Shown piece after piece: positions 19,431-24,947 of a stretch of DNA of 64,000 bases (the first letter of the stretch is position 1; every line of letters starts with the position of its first letter). The notes under the pieces were generated by a model, which saw only the letters and a list, made by a program, of their open reading frames with translations, was not told where the DNA came from and ran no database searches. The stretch lies in assembly GCF_001693815.1 (NCBI RefSeq), contig NZ_MBQD01000025.1, forward strand, positions 124,001 to 188,000. Reading direction: 5' to 3'. Origin of the DNA: Tessaracoccus lapidicaptus (GTDB lineage: Bacteria > Actinomycetota > Actinomycetes > Propionibacteriales > Propionibacteriaceae). The position numbers and the translations under genes are program-made.

Positions 19431-19919
19431 TCAGGCCCCTTCTCTCGTGGCCAGGGCGTGAGCCAGCACGACCCGGCCGTCGCCGAAGACCGGCAGCAGG
19501 AACACGAGGTGCGCCAGGTGGAGCCAGCCGACGGCGGGCGGCAGGCCTGCTGCGAGGGTGGCGAACCCGACCAGGGCCGCGGCCCCGGGCCCGGCCACAG
19601 CGGCCACCACCGCGCGTTTGGGGGTGAGGTCGCCGACCGGGGTGACGGAGATCCGCCACCATGTGCGCTCCACCACCACGGAGCTGCTCCCGCCGCGCGA
19701 GAGAAGCACCGCGACATGACCGCACTCGTGCACCACGAATGACCCCAGCGCTCCGATCACCAGGACGAGCGTGACCTGCCAGGCCAGTTCGTACAGCCAA
19801 CCGGCTCCCGCGCCGAGGTGGGCGGCGACGGCCAGCAACCAGAAGCCCGCCGTTGCGGCCACCAGCGGCCACCCGGCCAGGACGACGGCGCGGGCGACGG
19901 CGACCAGGGCCGACGTCAC
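19431..19919 (-). CDS. small M50-type intramembrane metalloprotease
   Basis: A 162-residue membrane protein with about four helices and a zinc-protease motif HECGH at residues 64-68. A second motif, LLPVFGDGR near residue 150, is in the place of the M50 NxxPxxxxDG ligand motif. It lacks a PDZ domain and is far smaller than RseP, so its substrate is likely specific and local. The GTG start at 19919 overlaps the preceding gene's stop by 4 nt (GTGA). It is the last gene of a minus-strand island with an ABC exporter, two small peptides and a two-component system, suggesting that it clips a membrane peptide. That role is inference. Confidence 0.78.
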   Translation of the reverse strand: MTSALVAVARAVVLAGWPLVAATAGFWLLAVAAHLGAGAGWLYELAWQVTLVLVIGALGSFVVHECGHVAVLLSRGGSSSVVVERTWWRISVTPVGDLTPKRAVVAAVAGPGAAALVGFATLAAGLPPAVGWLHLAHLVFLLPVFGDGRVVLAHALATREGA

Positions 19920-20230
19920 GCGGCGCCGCTGAGCAGCCCCGCGCGGTAGCTCTTCAGCCAGCGGAAGATCACCACGGTCACGAAGACGAAGCCGGCGACG
20001 ACCAGCGTCGAGATCAGCAGGGGCCAACCCGAGGCCACCCCGACGTTCATAGTGAACGCGTCGGCATCCAGCGGCACCGTCTCGAAGAACACCGCGCCGA
20101 AGAACCCCTCGACGCGCCGCCCCACGTCGGGGGTGGCCGCCATGAGCCCGAGCAGGCTGAACGCGGCCAGCGCGACGGTCGTGACGAGTCCGGCGACGAG
20201 GCTATACAGCGAGAGCTTGAGGTACGTCAT
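19916..20230 (-). CDS. 104-residue two-helix membrane protein, function unknown
   Basis: I do not recognise the family. The protein has a hydrophobic segment at about residues 5-30 and another at about 68-92, then a basic tail (RWLKSYRAG). The loop between them is acidic (ETVPLDADAF). The ATG at 20230 has AGGAG 5 nt upstream. Its 5' end overlaps the end of the permease gene by 29 nt and its stop overlaps the M50 gene by 4 nt. In peptide-export operons, small helical proteins in this place often give immunity, but nothing in the sequence proves it. Confidence 0.65.
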   Translation of the reverse strand: MTYLKLSLYSLVAGLVTTVALAAFSLLGLMAATPDVGRRVEGFFGAVFFETVPLDADAFTMNVGVASGWPLLISTLVVAGFVFVTVVIFRWLKSYRAGLLSGAA

Positions 20231-21644
20231 GGCGACTCCTTGTTTCGTGAACGTGGATGGACCACACGCTGACCACGGCGGCCAGCGCGGCGAGGGCGGC
20301 AAGCAGCGGCACGGTGGCCGCGGCCGGGAGCTGCAGCAGGCCCGTGAGGATCCCGACGAACGCCAGGATCAGTGCCAGGACCAGCGACCCGAGCAGGGCG
20401 CTGAAGGGGTTGTCGTTCTCGGCCGGGAATGCGGACCCGACGAGGACGGCGAAGACGACCGCGGCCACCGTGCCGAGGACCGGCTCGGAGGATCCGGCGA
20501 GGAGCTCGGGCCGTGCGAGCGCCAGAACGCCGAACCCTGCTGCCAGGAACACCCCGACGACGGCCGTCTGACAGCCCACCATGCGTAGCCAGATCGACCA
20601 GGGGCCCCGCTCGGGATGCAGGATGCGCAGGGCGCGCGTGTTGCCGTAGTGGTACATCCCGGGGAAGGACAGCAGCGCGGCCGACCACAAGGGGTGGACC
20701 GACGCGGTCCCGGCCAGATAGGCGAACAGGGCCGCCGCCAACGACACCCCCAACCACAGGTGCTGATTGCGGAGCGCGTACGCGAGGTGGACGCCCCACG
20801 GACCCGACGTGCGCACCGGCAGGGCGAGATTGACGAAGCGGTGGTGGCTCGGGTGCGCGTTCGGGGCGGTGAGCACCGCGGCCAGGGCGAGCACGGCCAC
20901 GAGGCCGCCCGCCCCGAGGACATAGGCCCACGGCCCGTACGTGTGGAGGAGCCAGGGCATGAGGTTGAGCCCGATGAGGGCGCGGCCGCCTGGGGCGTCG
21001 GGCAGCGACACCGCCCCCACCAGCGACACCAGCCGCGCATTGAGCCACAGCAGGGCCGCGAACGTCACCAGCAGCAGGACCGTGGAGCGGACCCGGCGCA
21101 GCCCGAGCAGGGTGAGGAGGAGGTCGCCGGCGTTGTGCGCGATGGTGACCACGAGATACACGACGACGCCGGTCACGATCGGGGTGGTGGCGAGCAGCAC
21201 CCCGCGGGGCCCGAGGATCATGGTCGAGGAGATGCCCATCGCCGCCATGAGGACGGCCGTGATGAGGACCAGGGTGGTGGCCTCGAAGGCGAGCAGCGCG
21301 CCGCGTCGCTCACGGTGACTGACCGGGAGCTGGGCCGTGAAGTCCAGCACGGCGGAAGCCCCGCCCACCAGCAGCCGCAGGGCCATGAAGATGCCGAGGA
21401 CGATCATCGCCACCGACACCGAGGTCAGGTCGAAGACGTAGCGCCAGACGCCCAGCTCCGAGCCCACCGGCCGCATGAACTGGTAGGCCACCACCGCCGC
21501 GCCCACCACAAACGCGACCATGGTGAGGAGGATGAGGCCCCGCGCCGCCCAGGAGCGCAGCGGCCCCATCGCGAGGGCGCGGCGCGAGAAGTACCGGGCG
21601 AGCATGCCCGTGCACGCCGCCACCCGGCGGAGGCTCCCGATCAC
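20202..21644 (-). CDS. ABC transporter permease, 480 residues
   Basis: A polytopic membrane protein with roughly a dozen predicted helices and no recognisable motif other than general similarity to large ABC-2-like or EcsB-like permeases. The GTG start at 21644 overlaps the ATPase stop by 4 nt, showing that they form one transporter. The length (480 residues) is much larger than the six-helix ABC-2 permease at 11160. Given the neighbouring small membrane peptide and protease, a peptide substrate is likely. That is inference. Confidence 0.8.
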   Translation of the reverse strand: MIGSLRRVAACTGMLARYFSRRALAMGPLRSWAARGLILLTMVAFVVGAAVVAYQFMRPVGSELGVWRYVFDLTSVSVAMIVLGIFMALRLLVGGASAVLDFTAQLPVSHRERRGALLAFEATTLVLITAVLMAAMGISSTMILGPRGVLLATTPIVTGVVVYLVVTIAHNAGDLLLTLLGLRRVRSTVLLLVTFAALLWLNARLVSLVGAVSLPDAPGGRALIGLNLMPWLLHTYGPWAYVLGAGGLVAVLALAAVLTAPNAHPSHHRFVNLALPVRTSGPWGVHLAYALRNQHLWLGVSLAAALFAYLAGTASVHPLWSAALLSFPGMYHYGNTRALRILHPERGPWSIWLRMVGCQTAVVGVFLAAGFGVLALARPELLAGSSEPVLGTVAAVVFAVLVGSAFPAENDNPFSALLGSLVLALILAFVGILTGLLQLPAAATVPLLAALAALAAVVSVWSIHVHETRSRHDVPQALAV

Positions 21645-22369
21645 TGGAGGGTCCGCTCGTCCAGGTGGGACATCACCAACGCCGCGACGTCGCGGCCGGA
21701 CGCGCGCAGGTCGTCGAGGGTGACGTCGCTGATCACGTGCCCGAAGTCGAGGAAGACGATGCGGTCCGCGACGCGCTCCAGCATGGAGAAGTCGTGGGAA
21801 CACAGCAGGACACCCAGCCCCTCGGAGCGCATCCGCAGCAGCTCTCTCTCGACGAGGTACAGCGCCTCGATGTCGATGCCGTTGAGGGTCTCGTCGATGA
21901 CGGTTAGGGGCCGCCGGTTGAGGAAGGCCGAGATCAGCTGGGTCTTCTTGCGCATGCCGTGCGAGAAGTCCTCCATGAGATGCGGCAGCCGGCCCTTCAT
22001 CCCGTAGCGGTCGAACAACGCGGCCGCCGCCGCCCGGTCGACGCGCGAGCCATACAGGCCGGCGAGCAGGTCCAGGTATTCGGCGGCCCGGAGGAACTCC
22101 GGCAGATGGTCGTTGCTCGAGAGGTACTGCGCCTGCTGCCGCCCGGAGCGGAGGCGGTGCGGTGCGCCGTCGATGGTGATGGAGCCGGTGCGCAGCTTCA
22201 GGAGGTCGAAGATGAGCGTGATGAGGGTCGACTTCCCCGACCCGTTCGGGCCGACCAGACCGACGATCTCGCCGCGGCCCACGTGGAGGCTGACATCGTG
22301 CAGGACCCGGGGGCCGCCTCCGTAGGCGTAGCTGACGCCCGACACCTGCAGCACGTGCGAGAGGTTCAT
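21641..22369 (-). CDS. ABC transporter ATP-binding protein, EcsA-like
   Basis: A 242-residue ATPase with Walker A GPNGSGKS near residue 40. The degenerate signature FSHGMRKKTQ replaces LSGGQ, a form common in EcsA and bacteriocin-export or immunity ATPases. Walker B reads LTVIDETLNGID and the switch His lies in LLCSHDFSML. It powers the permease encoded directly after it. The start is the ATG at 22369 with AAGGAG 4 nt upstream. A strong hairpin at 22390-22417 separates it from the 80-residue peptide gene upstream. Confidence 0.88.
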   Translation of the reverse strand: MNLSHVLQVSGVSYAYGGGPRVLHDVSLHVGRGEIVGLVGPNGSGKSTLITLIFDLLKLRTGSITIDGAPHRLRSGRQQAQYLSSNDHLPEFLRAAEYLDLLAGLYGSRVDRAAAAALFDRYGMKGRLPHLMEDFSHGMRKKTQLISAFLNRRPLTVIDETLNGIDIEALYLVERELLRMRSEGLGVLLCSHDFSMLERVADRIVFLDFGHVISDVTLDDLRASGRDVAALVMSHLDERTLQ

Positions 22370-22389
22370 GATGCTCCTTACGTGGGGGA

Positions 22390-22417
22390 GGGGCGGGCCG
22401 GAGGTCCGGCCCGCCCC
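22390..22417 (-). terminator. 12-bp hairpin between peptide and exporter genes (attenuator candidate)
   Basis: GGGGCGGGCCGG (22390-22401) and CCGGCCCGCCCC (22406-22417) form a perfect 12-bp stem with a four-base loop. It stands 23 nt after the peptide stop and 20 nt before the ATPase start. No U-tract follows, so it may be a partial terminator or an mRNA end protector that raises peptide over exporter expression. Confidence 0.6.
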
Positions 22418-22440
22418 GGGGGGTCAGCGGAGGGACGGGA

Positions 22441-22683
22441 TCAACGGCGGCACTCGAGGGCGACCTGCCAGCCGCTCTTCCAGTACCAGTTGCCGGTGAA
22501 CCGACCCTTCTGGTTGACGACGCACCAGATGGCCATGCCGGCGAGCAGGGCGGCGGCGAGGGCCAGGATGACGGCGACGAAGACGAGGAACCAGGCGTCG
22601 TAGCGGACGACGGCGGTGTCGAACTTCGTCTTGATCAGGGATCCCAGCGGGGCGCTGGAGACGGCGGCGAGCGTTGCGTTCAT
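22441..22683 (-). CDS. 80-residue single-span membrane peptide, candidate secreted-peptide precursor
   Basis: I do not recognise the family. The ATG at 22683 has AAGGA 6 nt upstream. Residues 1-28 form an N-terminal part (MNATLAAVSSAPLGSLIKTK and a little more). Residues about 30-57 are one strong membrane helix. The last 24 residues form a basic, aromatic tail containing GNWYWKSGW and ending LECRR. A small one-helix peptide upstream of an ABC exporter and an M50 protease, followed by a hairpin, looks like a pheromone or bacteriocin precursor. It could instead be a small subunit of the transporter. Confidence 0.7.
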   Translation of the reverse strand: MNATLAAVSSAPLGSLIKTKFDTAVVRYDAWFLVFVAVILALAAALLAGMAIWCVVNQKGRFTGNWYWKSGWQVALECRR

Positions 22684-22818
22684 AGTTGTTCCTTCGTTCG
22701 GTGGTGTGCACTGCGAGGATTCCGCCGGCCATGGGTGGCGCGCCTCCGGTGTCGCCCTCGGACACCACTCCATCGCAGGGATCGCACCACGTCACGGGTG
22801 CGGCGGCGAGATGTCGCC

Positions 22819-22848
22819 GAAGGTAGATCAGGCCTGGCCGGAAGGTAG
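22819..22848 (-). promoter_or_regulatory. direct repeats upstream of the 80-residue peptide gene
   Basis: CTACCTTC occurs twice on the minus strand, at 22841-22848 and 22819-22826, 22 bp apart (about two helical turns), within the 175-nt gap between the kinase stop and the peptide start. Such spaced direct repeats suit a dimeric response regulator encoded in the same island. No promoter elements are clear. Confidence 0.35.
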
Positions 22849-22858
22849 TCCCGGCAGG

Positions 22859-23992
22859 TCAGCGCCCCGCAGGATCCGACTGCGCGACCTCGTACCCGTG
22901 CGGGAGACGCACCCGGACGTGCCACCAGCCGGCGTCGCGCACGACCCGACAGGTCCCGCGCAGCAGCCCGGCCCGCTCCTCGATGCCGATGAGGCCGAGG
23001 CCGCGCGGATTGACGCGCGAGGCCGTCGTTCGGTTGCTGAAGACGGCGATGAGGTCGTCGTCGTCCTCGGTGATGGACAGGTGGCACTGCGTACCGGCGG
23101 CGGCGTGCTTGATCATGTTGGAGGCGGCCTCGACGGTCACCTTGGCCAGCGTCGTCGCCCGGGCCGAACTCACCGGGCCGATCCGCACCTCGGTGGTCGC
23201 CATGAACCCGTGGTCGCGCAGGCGCTGCGCCTGCTCCTCGACGGCGGCGGCGAGCGTGTCGGCGTCGGCGAGGGGACCGACGAACCCGGGTGGGGGTCCG
23301 TCGTGCTCCCGCAGCGTGGAGAGCAGTTGACGCAGGTCGTGCGCCGACGAGGAGCACTCCTCCGCGATCTGGCCCAGCCCCGCGCGGATCTCGTCCGTCA
23401 CCTCCGCCGACAGCGCGAGCATGTGGGCGCGCATGGCGGCGTGGGAGAGGGTCTGGGCGACGGTGTCGTGCAGGTCCCGCGCCAGGGCCGCCCGCAGTTC
23501 CGCGACGCGCTCGTCGGCCACCTCGCGCTCGCGCAGCACGCGGCCGGCGGCCACCCGCCAGACGCTGCCCGCCCCGATGGCGAGCGCCGCGAGCACCAGC
23601 ACGAAGGCCGCGGAGATGAGGTGGTCGCGCAGCGACGTCGACGAGTGCCACACCATCGTGGCGTACGCCGAGCAGCTCAGCAGCGCGACGAGCGGGACCT
23701 TCCAGCGCAGGTCAAGCCGGATGGCTGCGAAGACGTTGATGAAGCTGGCCAGGCCTGCCACGCTGACGTCGGCCGCCGGCAGGGCGAGGAAGGACAGGAG
23801 CGAGGCGACCGTGAGCACCGACGCCACGCGGGGCACCATGGCCGAGAGCCCGGCGCCCAGACAGAGCGTGAGGGTCAGCAGGCGGGCGGGCAGCCCCTGG
23901 TCCGGCTGCACGACGAGCGCGAACGCCAGCGCCAACACCGCCATGGCGGGCTCGGCCCACCGGGTGTCGACAGAGGGCGCCGCGCTTGTCAT
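22859..23992 (-). CDS. sensor histidine kinase, NarL/DesK-type (HisKA_3)
   Basis: A 377-residue membrane kinase with about five N-terminal helices (residues 15-145) and no sizeable extracellular domain. This suggests it senses within the membrane. The phosphoacceptor is H175 in the HisKA_3 motif RDLHDTVAQTLSH. The ATPase domain has an N-box around VEAASNMIKHA and a G-box GLGLIGIEERAG. It pairs with the response regulator at 24294. The 53-residue peptide gene lies between them, 18 nt before this start. No clear Shine-Dalgarno sequence precedes the ATG. Confidence 0.92.
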   Translation of the reverse strand: MTSAAPSVDTRWAEPAMAVLALAFALVVQPDQGLPARLLTLTLCLGAGLSAMVPRVASVLTVASLLSFLALPAADVSVAGLASFINVFAAIRLDLRWKVPLVALLSCSAYATMVWHSSTSLRDHLISAAFVLVLAALAIGAGSVWRVAAGRVLREREVADERVAELRAALARDLHDTVAQTLSHAAMRAHMLALSAEVTDEIRAGLGQIAEECSSSAHDLRQLLSTLREHDGPPPGFVGPLADADTLAAAVEEQAQRLRDHGFMATTEVRIGPVSSARATTLAKVTVEAASNMIKHAAAGTQCHLSITEDDDDLIAVFSNRTTASRVNPRGLGLIGIEERAGLLRGTCRVVRDAGWWHVRVRLPHGYEVAQSDPAGR

Positions 23993-24010
23993 GCGGCGAG
24001 TCTAGGACGT

Positions 24011-24172
24011 CTACCGGTGCGGGCAGAGGTACGGGATGAGCAGGCAGTACCACTGGTGCGTGGGCGCCAGTTGCCGCGCCAGGCGCTTGATGAGGGGGCG
24101 GTGGAAGGCGGTGGTCGTCGTCACCAGGGCGATGGCGTCGGTCACGGTCGGGTCGGCGAGATGGTCGAGCAT
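24011..24172 (-). CDS. 53-residue peptide between kinase and regulator genes
   Basis: A short, previously easy-to-miss gene. The ATG at 24172 has a good Shine-Dalgarno sequence (AAAGGA, 6 nt spacing) and the frame ends with TAG at 24011, 18 nt before the kinase start. The peptide begins MLDHLADPTVTDAIALVTTT, has a basic amphipathic middle (RPLIKRLARQL) and ends in QWYCLLIPYLCPHR with two cysteines spaced C-x6-C. No signal peptide or double-Gly leader is seen and I know no family. Its position suggests a signal or antimicrobial precursor sensed or exported by the surrounding system. That is inference. Confidence 0.6.
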   Translation of the reverse strand: MLDHLADPTVTDAIALVTTTTAFHRPLIKRLARQLAPTHQWYCLLIPYLCPHR

Positions 24173-24293
24173 GCTGTGTCCTTTCGTCGGGCTCCGCCGG
24201 CGACGCTAGACGCCCGGGACGGTCATCACGCCGGGCCGGCCGACGAGCGAATGGCCGATGGTGGACACATCATCAACTTTCGTCTACGCCCGA

Positions 24294-24947
24294 TCAGTCG
24301 TCCACCAGCCCCCACTCGTGGGCCTGGGCGGCCAGCGCCGCGCGATTGGGCTTGCCGAGCCGGCCGAGCAGGCGGCTGACGTAGGTCTTGACCGTGCTCG
24401 GGGCCAGGTAGAGCTCGTCGGCGATCTCGGCGTTGCTGCGGCCGCGGCCCACGAGGCGCATGATGTCGCGGTCGATGCGGCTGAGCGACGGGGGCGGGGC
24501 AGAGCGCGCCCGGCCCGACGCGAGGATCTTCGCCACCAGCTTCGGGGACACGAGGGCGTCCCCGCTGAAGGCGCTGCGCACGCCGTGCAGGATGAGCCCG
24601 GGGCTGTCGGACTTCAGCAGGAAGCCGGACGCCCCCGCGGTGAGCGCGCGGTGCATGACCCGGTCGTCGCCGAGCGCGGTGAAGCAGACCACGCGCATCG
24701 TCGAGGGTGGCGCGGTGAGGCGGGCGGTCAGCTCGATGCCGTCGAGCGTCGGCAGGTGGATGTCCACGATCACGACGTCGGGCTCCAGCCGGCGGGCCAG
24801 GTCCAGCGCCTCGGCGCCGTCGGAGGCGCTCCCGACGAGCTCGATGTCGGCCGTGCGCATGAGGTAGGTGGCGATGGCCTGCTGCGCCAGAGGGTCGTCC
24901 TCGGCGAGCACGACCCGGATCGGGGGCGCGACAGTCGGCTGCGTCAT
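24294..24947 (-). CDS. response regulator, NarL/LuxR family
   Basis: A 217-residue regulator with a receiver domain (about 1-120) and a LuxR-type HTH (about 155-212). The acidic pocket is D17/D18 and the phosphorylated Asp is D62 in VIVDIHLPTLDG. The conserved Thr and Lys lie in VCFTALG and LLKSDS. The HTH recognition part reads NAEIADELYLAPSTVKTYVS. It is expected to be phosphorylated by the kinase at 22859 and to control this island. The ATG at 24947 is preceded by TAGGTT at 7 nt, so the transcript is probably leaderless. It heads the minus-strand island. Confidence 0.93.
   Translation of the reverse strand: MTQPTVAPPIRVVLAEDDPLAQQAIATYLMRTADIELVGSASDGAEALDLARRLEPDVVIVDIHLPTLDGIELTARLTAPPSTMRVVCFTALGDDRVMHRALTAGASGFLLKSDSPGLILHGVRSAFSGDALVSPKLVAKILASGRARSAPPPSLSRIDRDIMRLVGRGRSNAEIADELYLAPSTVKTYVSRLLGRLGKPNRAALAAQAHEWGLVDD

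Follow-up and report, generated by a model that had tools for sequence, protein, structure and literature searches.

The 64,000-nucleotide window analysed here (positions 124,001 to 188,000 of contig NZ_MBQD01000025.1 of Tessaracoccus lapidicaptus, from an assembly of 3.09 Mb in 27 contigs that we call G000) carries on its minus strand, from position 24947 down to 19431, eight frames in the order response regulator, 53-residue peptide, membrane histidine kinase, 80-residue peptide, ATP-binding cassette (ABC) ATPase, permease, 104-residue protein and protease. A first-pass annotation of this DNA had listed eight same-strand genes in this order with the last four overlapping, and we recovered all of these frames, with overlapping junctions between ATPase and permease, permease and 104-residue protein, and 104-residue protein and protease. 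The kinase gene that it described is likewise present; its count of five helices was not reproduced, a strict hydropathy threshold giving three. The locus consists of two adjoining units, a TMcin cluster comprising the last five genes and a separate candidate signalling unit comprising the first three, and the features of both are as follows.

24294..24947, minus strand: response regulator of NarL/LuxR type, 217 residues (Response_reg 8.4e-23, GerE 5.7e-12)
24271..24286, minus strand: candidate response regulator box, TAGACGAAAGTTGATG, in the peptide-kinase promoter (17.7 bits, top site in the 64 kb)
24011..24172, minus strand: 53-residue candidate pheromone precursor with the tail WYCLLIPYLCPHR (two-Cys C-terminal motif immediately 5' of the kinase)
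22859..23992, minus strand: membrane histidine kinase, 377 residues, proposed pheromone receptor (HisKA_3 2.6e-11)
22814..22829, plus strand: candidate response regulator box in the tmcA promoter, TCGCCGAAGGTAGATC, ~146 bases 5' of the tmcA start (16.6 bits)
22441..22683, minus strand: tmcA, 80-residue TMcin precursor in which a leader, with its predicted cut at D29|A30-W31, is followed by a single transmembrane helix; Cys pair C54 and C78 (homology, alignment)
21641..22369, minus strand: tmcB, ABC exporter ATPase, 242 residues (ABC_tran 2.2e-23)
20202..21644, minus strand: tmcC, ABC exporter permease, 480 residues, GTG start, 12 hydrophobic segments (tblastn in relatives, segment count)
19916..20230, minus strand: tmcE, two-helix escort-type protein, 104 residues (locus comparison, segment count)
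19431..19919, minus strand: tmcP, minimal site-2 protease, 162 residues, GTG start, HECGH, P143, D147, four hydrophobic segments (alignment, segment count)

The permease, the 104-residue protein, both peptides and the protease had no Pfam or NCBIfam match above the curated cut-off, and an Rfam scan of the whole window gave no match.

The last five genes, tmcABCEP, almost certainly form a TMcin bacteriocin cluster, extending an already described class by one member. We make this assignment because their homology and anatomy match the class as published, the staphylococcal TMcin having been compared through its description and not its sequence. The class was published in 2025 (Nat Commun, PMC12328743) and its biosynthesis was treated in a 2026 bioRxiv preprint (PMC13252029), with TMcin-G1905 as the reference. 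As described in the main texts of these two papers, the TMcin precursor has a transmembrane helix flanked by Trp and Cys residues at positions 25 and 50, its leader is cut by TmcP, a protease of the site-2 protease (S2P) type, TmcE is a two-helix escort, and the exporter TmcBC has a 12-helix permease; killing requires the disulfide and involves pores in the target membrane, and the class is distributed over Bacillota and Actinomycetota (PMC12328743, PMC13252029). The present cluster is like that of TMcin-G1905 in its Trp-flanked helix precursor with two Cys about 25 residues apart, its exporter with a 12-helix permease, its two-helix escort and its four-helix HExxH...D site-2 protease. A DsbA-like tmcD, part of the staphylococcal TMcin cluster, is absent from the eight genes of the locus. 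TmcP also differs from its staphylococcal counterpart with respect to PF11667 (DUF3267), a family in which we do not file it because it gave no match at an expectation value (E) of ≤1. A two-component system neighbours the core here, whereas the neighbour in the staphylococcal cluster is, in the published description, a helix-turn-helix operon of unstudied role. The gene order here is A-B-C-E-P, and the 2025 paper mentions three cluster arrangements in its main text (PMC12328743). The first-pass annotation knew this exact combination of genes from no earlier description; for the five-gene core that does not hold, because the set of peptide, exporter and protease is the published TMcin cluster. 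Its alternative of a bacteriocin proved to be the right branch, and its idea that a membrane peptide is cleaved and exported agrees with the TMcin pathway as published in the same main texts (PMC12328743, PMC13252029).

We found 90 proteins related to the 80-residue peptide at E≤1e-3, the window's own record included, and aligned 47 of them. Residues R27, D29, A30, W31, A37, W53, C54, F62, G64, G71 and C78 are invariant in this alignment, and the single helix at residues 32-50 is flanked by the invariant W31 and W53. The Cys pair is kept in all 47 precursors, with a spacing of 25 in 31 and of 24 in 16, and all 47 have D|A-W at the predicted cut when the first Cys is counted as mature residue 25. 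Glu precedes the second Cys in 42/47. Outside this set the D or A of the cut site varies, as seen in the precursors of G169 (D|GW), one Bacillus (Q|AW) and one Romboutsia (E|AW). Hydrophobic segments in TmcA, TmcC, TmcE and TmcP number 1, 12, 2 and 4, in agreement with the published TMcin proteins. When our TmcP was aligned with 22 others from loci of the GTDB scan described below, H64, E65, H68, P143 and D147 were invariant in 23/23, which is the signature of S2P-clan proteases. Between G000 and the congeneric genome G163, tmcA shows a nonsynonymous divergence (dN) of 0.014 and a synonymous divergence (dS) of 0.34 over 63 codons, and the gene is under strong constraint. A label of daptide protease for TmcP was rejected, as the local match to NF041824 is weak (0.00039, 19.7 bits versus a curated cut-off of 300), and the eight genes include no daptide modification enzyme. 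Viral contigs searched with tmcA held no relative, a plasmid collection gave no match to the permease or the precursor, and the precursor profile found no credible match among solved structures.

A scan of GTDB contigs for tmcA yielded at least 36 loci, with relatives in both Actinomycetota and Bacillota. Among the matches listed, the ATPase gene comes next after the precursor gene in 36/36 loci; tblastn recognised the permease in 21/36 and the protease in 23/36, the misses being Bacillota loci plus, for the protease, one Bifidobacterium. A same-strand HExxH frame lies downstream in 34/36 of these listed loci and is missing from L019 and L034, despite a tblastn protease match in L019. The gene order of our core was recognised again in relatives, and the 80-residue peptide, exporter and protease form one conserved unit across tmc loci. 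The TMcin paper names, in its main text, a homologous system on NC_006270.3 (PMC12328743). Bacillus haynesii and B. paralicheniformis were among the matches of our tmcA scan. We take NC_006270.3 to be B. licheniformis and these two species to be close to it.

Several of these loci have features of their own. Paractinoplanes maris carries a tandem of two tmcA copies (L025:7419-8195). Bacillus, Romboutsia and Marininema tmc loci encode TmcP-like proteases with an extra PqqD-like N-terminal domain (PF05402), seen at L033:10391-11347, L027:10446-11351, L032:10522-11415 and L043:10391-11272 and above the cut-off in three of the four. This domain is a leader-binding fold of ribosomally synthesized and post-translationally modified peptides (RiPPs). 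The word PqqD is absent from the main texts of PMC12328743 and PMC13252029. At the Romboutsia tmc locus there are, in addition, genes for a DsbA-like protein with a thioredoxin fold and for a DUF3267 protease (L032:11692-12925), both of which have been reported from staphylococcal TMcin clusters.

By homology and anatomy, maturation, export and killing would follow the steps demonstrated or proposed for staphylococcal TMcin. TmcA would insert in the membrane, TmcP, helped by TmcE, would remove the leader before A30-W31, and a C54-C78 disulfide would close a C-terminal loop. TmcBC would then draw the peptide from the membrane, and the peptide would form pores in rival Gram-positive cells.

The response regulator, the 53-residue peptide and the kinase are a unit separate from TMcin, found without it in related genomes. 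We sampled 198 genomes of the family, 39 of them from the genus, and counted as kinase orthologues matches at E≤1e-40. Orthologues occur in 19/198 genomes, 13 of the 19 in the genus, and a response regulator homologue lies near the kinase in 19/19. By comparison, tmcA occurs in 4/39 genus genomes (G000, G154, G163 and G169), directly 3' of the kinase in the first three. In G169 the tmc cluster lies at another chromosomal site, near transposase-like frames and a response regulator homologue (L104:7449-14559). No tmcA was found in 10/13 genus kinase genomes, one of which (G157) is 60% complete. The kinase pair occupies the same suf/rarD neighbourhood in several tmcA-free genus genomes, and in G167 and G166 neither TMcin nor the signalling unit is found between the neighbour genes. 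When the tmc loci from outside the genus were searched by tblastn, the kinase gave no match and the response regulator matched weakly, in six loci only. An order-wide search with a profile of the sensor matched 42/391 genomes, all Propionibacteriaceae (nine candidates were scored per genome). The earlier proposal that the kinase senses a peptide released by the M50 protease finds no support in these data: the kinase has a peptide gene of its own and occurs in ten genus genomes in which tmcA was not found.

That peptide gene is a recurrent companion of the kinase. For 17/19 kinase orthologues, inspection by eye and a relaxed search place a small frame with a two-Cys C-terminus directly 5' of the kinase; its typical tail motif is C-x-x-hydrophobic-P-x-x-C, which reads C-L-L-I-P-Y-L-C in our 53-residue peptide. 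Among the 17, the ring is longer in G179 and G157, and the Pro is absent in G106, G105 and G159. A strict version of the motif, drawn up after the peptides had been seen, occurs in 12/19 kinase upstream regions, and a loose version, with a chance frequency of ~0.07 per 200 bases, in 16/19. In 449 kb of examined sequence (both strands) the strict motif occurs eight times, and seven of these are the two-Cys peptide. For alignment we used 15 members, leaving out G157, G159 and G082 and adding G122, which has a weaker kinase match (the kinase alignment itself comprised 18/19 kinases, without G070). These peptides have 40-60 residues, a lenient test recognised a purine-rich stretch resembling a ribosome-binding site at 14 of the 15 selected starts, and the Cys pair is invariant while the ring residues vary. 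The G122 member has a Sec-like signal followed by the motif C-E-I-L-P-I-L-W-W-C. A search with the 15-member profile matched 28 proteins at E≤1, all but one of them below 1e-4; several of these belong to the profile itself or nearly copy a member, and the only name given is 'hypothetical protein'. Together with the relatives of the 80-residue peptide given above, these matches show that both small frames have relatives elsewhere. One relative 91% identical to the 53-residue peptide comes from a record named T. lapidicaptus. Scanned singly, the 15 peptides gave one chance-level Pfam match (0.078) and no NCBIfam match at E≤0.1. Of 15 further loci found with the sensor profile, one is that of G122, G039 repeats the G106 peptide, three have unlike loose matches and ten have none. 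G165 presents a different arrangement, in which two response regulators flank the kinase with no two-Cys peptide between (L093:3308-5831).

The peptide covaries with the sensor. G000 and G163 have exactly the same tail, WYCLLIPYLCPHR, its codons differing by three silent changes and its stop codon being another, and the remainder of the peptide has diverged; in four other peptide pairs dN/dS is ~0.24 to 0.59. Across 16/19 kinase genomes (G165, G159 and G070 were left out), similarity of the peptide tail correlates with identity of the sensor after removal of kinase-domain identity, with a partial r of 0.46 (permutation p 0.0002), and without G163 the values are 0.41 and 0.0008. The pattern is visible in two genomes whose kinase domains are about equally close to ours (identity 0.58 for G163 and 0.57 for G148). 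The sensor of G163, with the identical peptide tail, has an identity of 0.60 to ours, and that of G148, with a different tail, 0.39. Peptide-pheromone two-component systems are generally marked by linkage of a gene for a small peptide to that of a membrane kinase and by receptor-ligand covariation, and both are present here at the level of sequence.

The two units are linked by a shared candidate DNA box, not by a shared peptide. We built a 16-base matrix from eight AAAGTTGA sites 5' of the peptide-kinase operon in seven genomes without detected tmc (G148, G164, G159, G105, G040, G087 and G106). Its two best sites in the window are those in the peptide-kinase and tmcA promoters listed above, and the third scores 9.6 bits. 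The tmcA promoters of the genus score 16.6 (G000), 24.4 (G163), 14.3 (G169) and 7.4 (G154). Among 672 null windows of 200 bases, a set that excludes our own promoter region and the G169 promoter, the maximum is 12.4; none reaches our tmcA site and nine reach 7.4, so that three of the four genus tmcA promoters stand above all 672. The consensus of the candidate box, TCNCCGAAAGTTGATC, has five exact sites in 12 whole genomes, all 5' of peptide-kinase operons that contributed to it, and with at most one mismatch there are 21 sites versus 4 for the reversed control; G129, one of the genomes without a kinase orthologue, has none of the 21. Kinase upstream sites score ≤9.1 in G165, G157, G082, G072 and G070.

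Further sites were sought in the whole G000 genome with a pattern made from our own two sites. It has one more exact match, 228 bases 5' of an ABC exporter and scoring 21.8 bits; this exporter (L166:3116-6279) is preceded by a 403-residue membrane-type frame. Homologues of its ATPase (42-56%) lie near the response regulator and kinase in 5/19 genomes (G040, G087, G179, G105 and G070), and in the other 14/19 no homologue above 32% was found in the stretch around that pair. The box-associated transporter may serve in peptide export or in protection of the cell. With one mismatch the pattern has two matches, at atpA and 5' of a WhiB-like gene. The former was dropped as a target, its site abutting the atpA start, and the latter is not claimed because 14/15 orthologues score ≤7.5 at that place. 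G148 has two additional box sites, both close to genes without clear relevance.

We consider it moderately likely that TMcin is switched on via the two-component system by a pheromone, a peptide probably closed into a disulfide ring. The position and motif of the peptide, its covariation with the sensor and the shared box are visible in the sequence; secretion, ring closure, binding and activation are inferred. The 53-residue precursor would be exported and its tail C-L-L-I-P-Y-L-C would close into a small disulfide ring, which the kinase would sense. The response regulator would then bind the box at its own peptide-kinase promoter, giving positive feedback, and the box at the tmcA promoter, with the result that TMcin would be made at high cell density.

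A number of observations weigh against this model. With regard to the peptide, G165 and G070 have the kinase without a two-Cys peptide, and the motif frames of G159 and G082 are without a clear start. In most two-Cys peptides a clear Sec signal is lacking, and no enzyme dedicated to processing them was recognised next to their genes. Shared ancestry is removed in part, not fully, in the covariation test. With regard to the box, the seed AAAGTTGA and the likeness to the tmcA promoter were spotted by eye, with the tmcA promoters already seen, before the matrix was trained, so the analysis was unblinded. The 672-window null also excludes the stretches that hold the ABC and the WhiB site, as these had been fetched on account of those sites. 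In other genera, 16 of 18 tmcA upstream stretches score ≤9.1, the other two reaching 13.5 and 11.0. In G000 the own-site pattern with at most two mismatches has 11 matches versus 5 for the reversed control, and the WhiB site (L168:4892-5685), ~254 bases 5' of the gene, scores 17.5 bits and exceeds the tmcA site. G167, which has no kinase orthologue, scores 13.0 bits at about the same distance before its WhiB-like gene and contributes 2 of the 21 near-matches to the consensus. No box lies within 400 bases of the ABC exporter orthologue in G148. Finally, G169 has tmc, a box and a response regulator homologue, but no kinase at E≤1e-40, and its precursor has the deviating D|GW cut site, while tmcA of G154 (L103:2862-3101) has an in-frame stop near its end in addition to its weak box at 7.4 bits. 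The stop and the weak promoter box suggest that tmcA of G154 is decaying.

Other explanations place the small peptide in a different role. It could be a small membrane-associated regulator, kept in the producer and tuning the kinase from within, and not a pheromone at all. Its gene directly 5' of the kinase, the hydrophobic N-terminal stretch of several members and the lack of a recognised protease or exporter beside it at most loci would all suit this. An invariant Cys pair in the 15 aligned peptides, with a short tail whose ring varies, suits an oxidised extracellular ring, and the G122 relative has its motif after a Sec-like signal; we regard such a regulator as unlikely. Less likely again is a second, autoinducing bacteriocin with the box-associated ABC transporter as exporter or immunity pump. 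Autoinducing bacteriocins are a known pattern, homologues of the transporter lie near the response regulator and kinase in five genomes, and the exact box precedes our copy. However, that copy is elsewhere in the genome, the stretches of the 14 other genomes are without a comparable homologue, and the shortness of the peptide and its match to the sensor suggest a signal.

The remaining explanations concern what the kinase senses. A LiaS-like or immunity function, in which the kinase responds to envelope damage or to TMcin, with the small peptide as a bystander or a minor modulator, is in line with a weak LiaS match of the kinase (21.7 bits versus a cut-off of 450) and with tmcA lying just 3' of the kinase in 3/4 genus tmcA genomes. 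HisKA_3/NarL kinases are also often envelope-stress sensors. The 10/13 genus kinase genomes without tmcA and the peptide-sensor covariation speak against it, and we hold it to be doubtful, below either reading of the peptide just discussed. That TmcA, freed by TmcP, is the ligand of the adjacent kinase is highly improbable. Gene adjacency is the one argument for it, whereas TmcA is conserved across phyla and the sensor is not, and the kinase occurs in ten genus genomes without tmcA.

The pheromone model can be set beside known systems (agr, the YydFGHIJ epipeptide and Eep/EcsAB). Like agr (AgrBDCA), the signalling unit places a small peptide gene beside a multi-helix membrane kinase and a regulator, with a short C-terminal ring proposed. 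Unlike agr, none of the eight proteins matches an AgrB-like protease at E≤1, the kinase is of the HisKA_3 and the regulator of the NarL/LuxR type, and the proposed ring is a disulfide and not a thiolactone. As in YydFGHIJ and Eep/EcsAB, an M50 protease and an ABC exporter would work on a peptide; in contrast to them, there is no modification enzyme among the eight genes and the precursor is a transmembrane one of TMcin type. In the literature, chiefly open-access, we found no description of the 53-residue peptide family or of two-component control of TMcin, and 'histidine kinase' and 'Tessaracoccus' are absent from the main texts of PMC12328743 and PMC13252029.

According to its main text, the 2026 preprint leaves the regulation of TMcin open (PMC13252029), and the locus described here offers a testable control circuit with sites defined to the base. 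With a slight lean in favour, we propose a Propionibacteriaceae pheromone family with precursors of 40-60 residues, a C-x-x-hydrophobic-P-x-x-C disulfide ring, genes immediately 5' of a HisKA_3 receptor, strain-specific pairs, a DNA box, and control of TMcin in at least two to three Tessaracoccus genomes. To our knowledge few peptide quorum-sensing families are known in Actinomycetota. If the small peptide is a signal, this would be such a family, with a visible pairing of peptide and receptor and a bacteriocin as its read-out.

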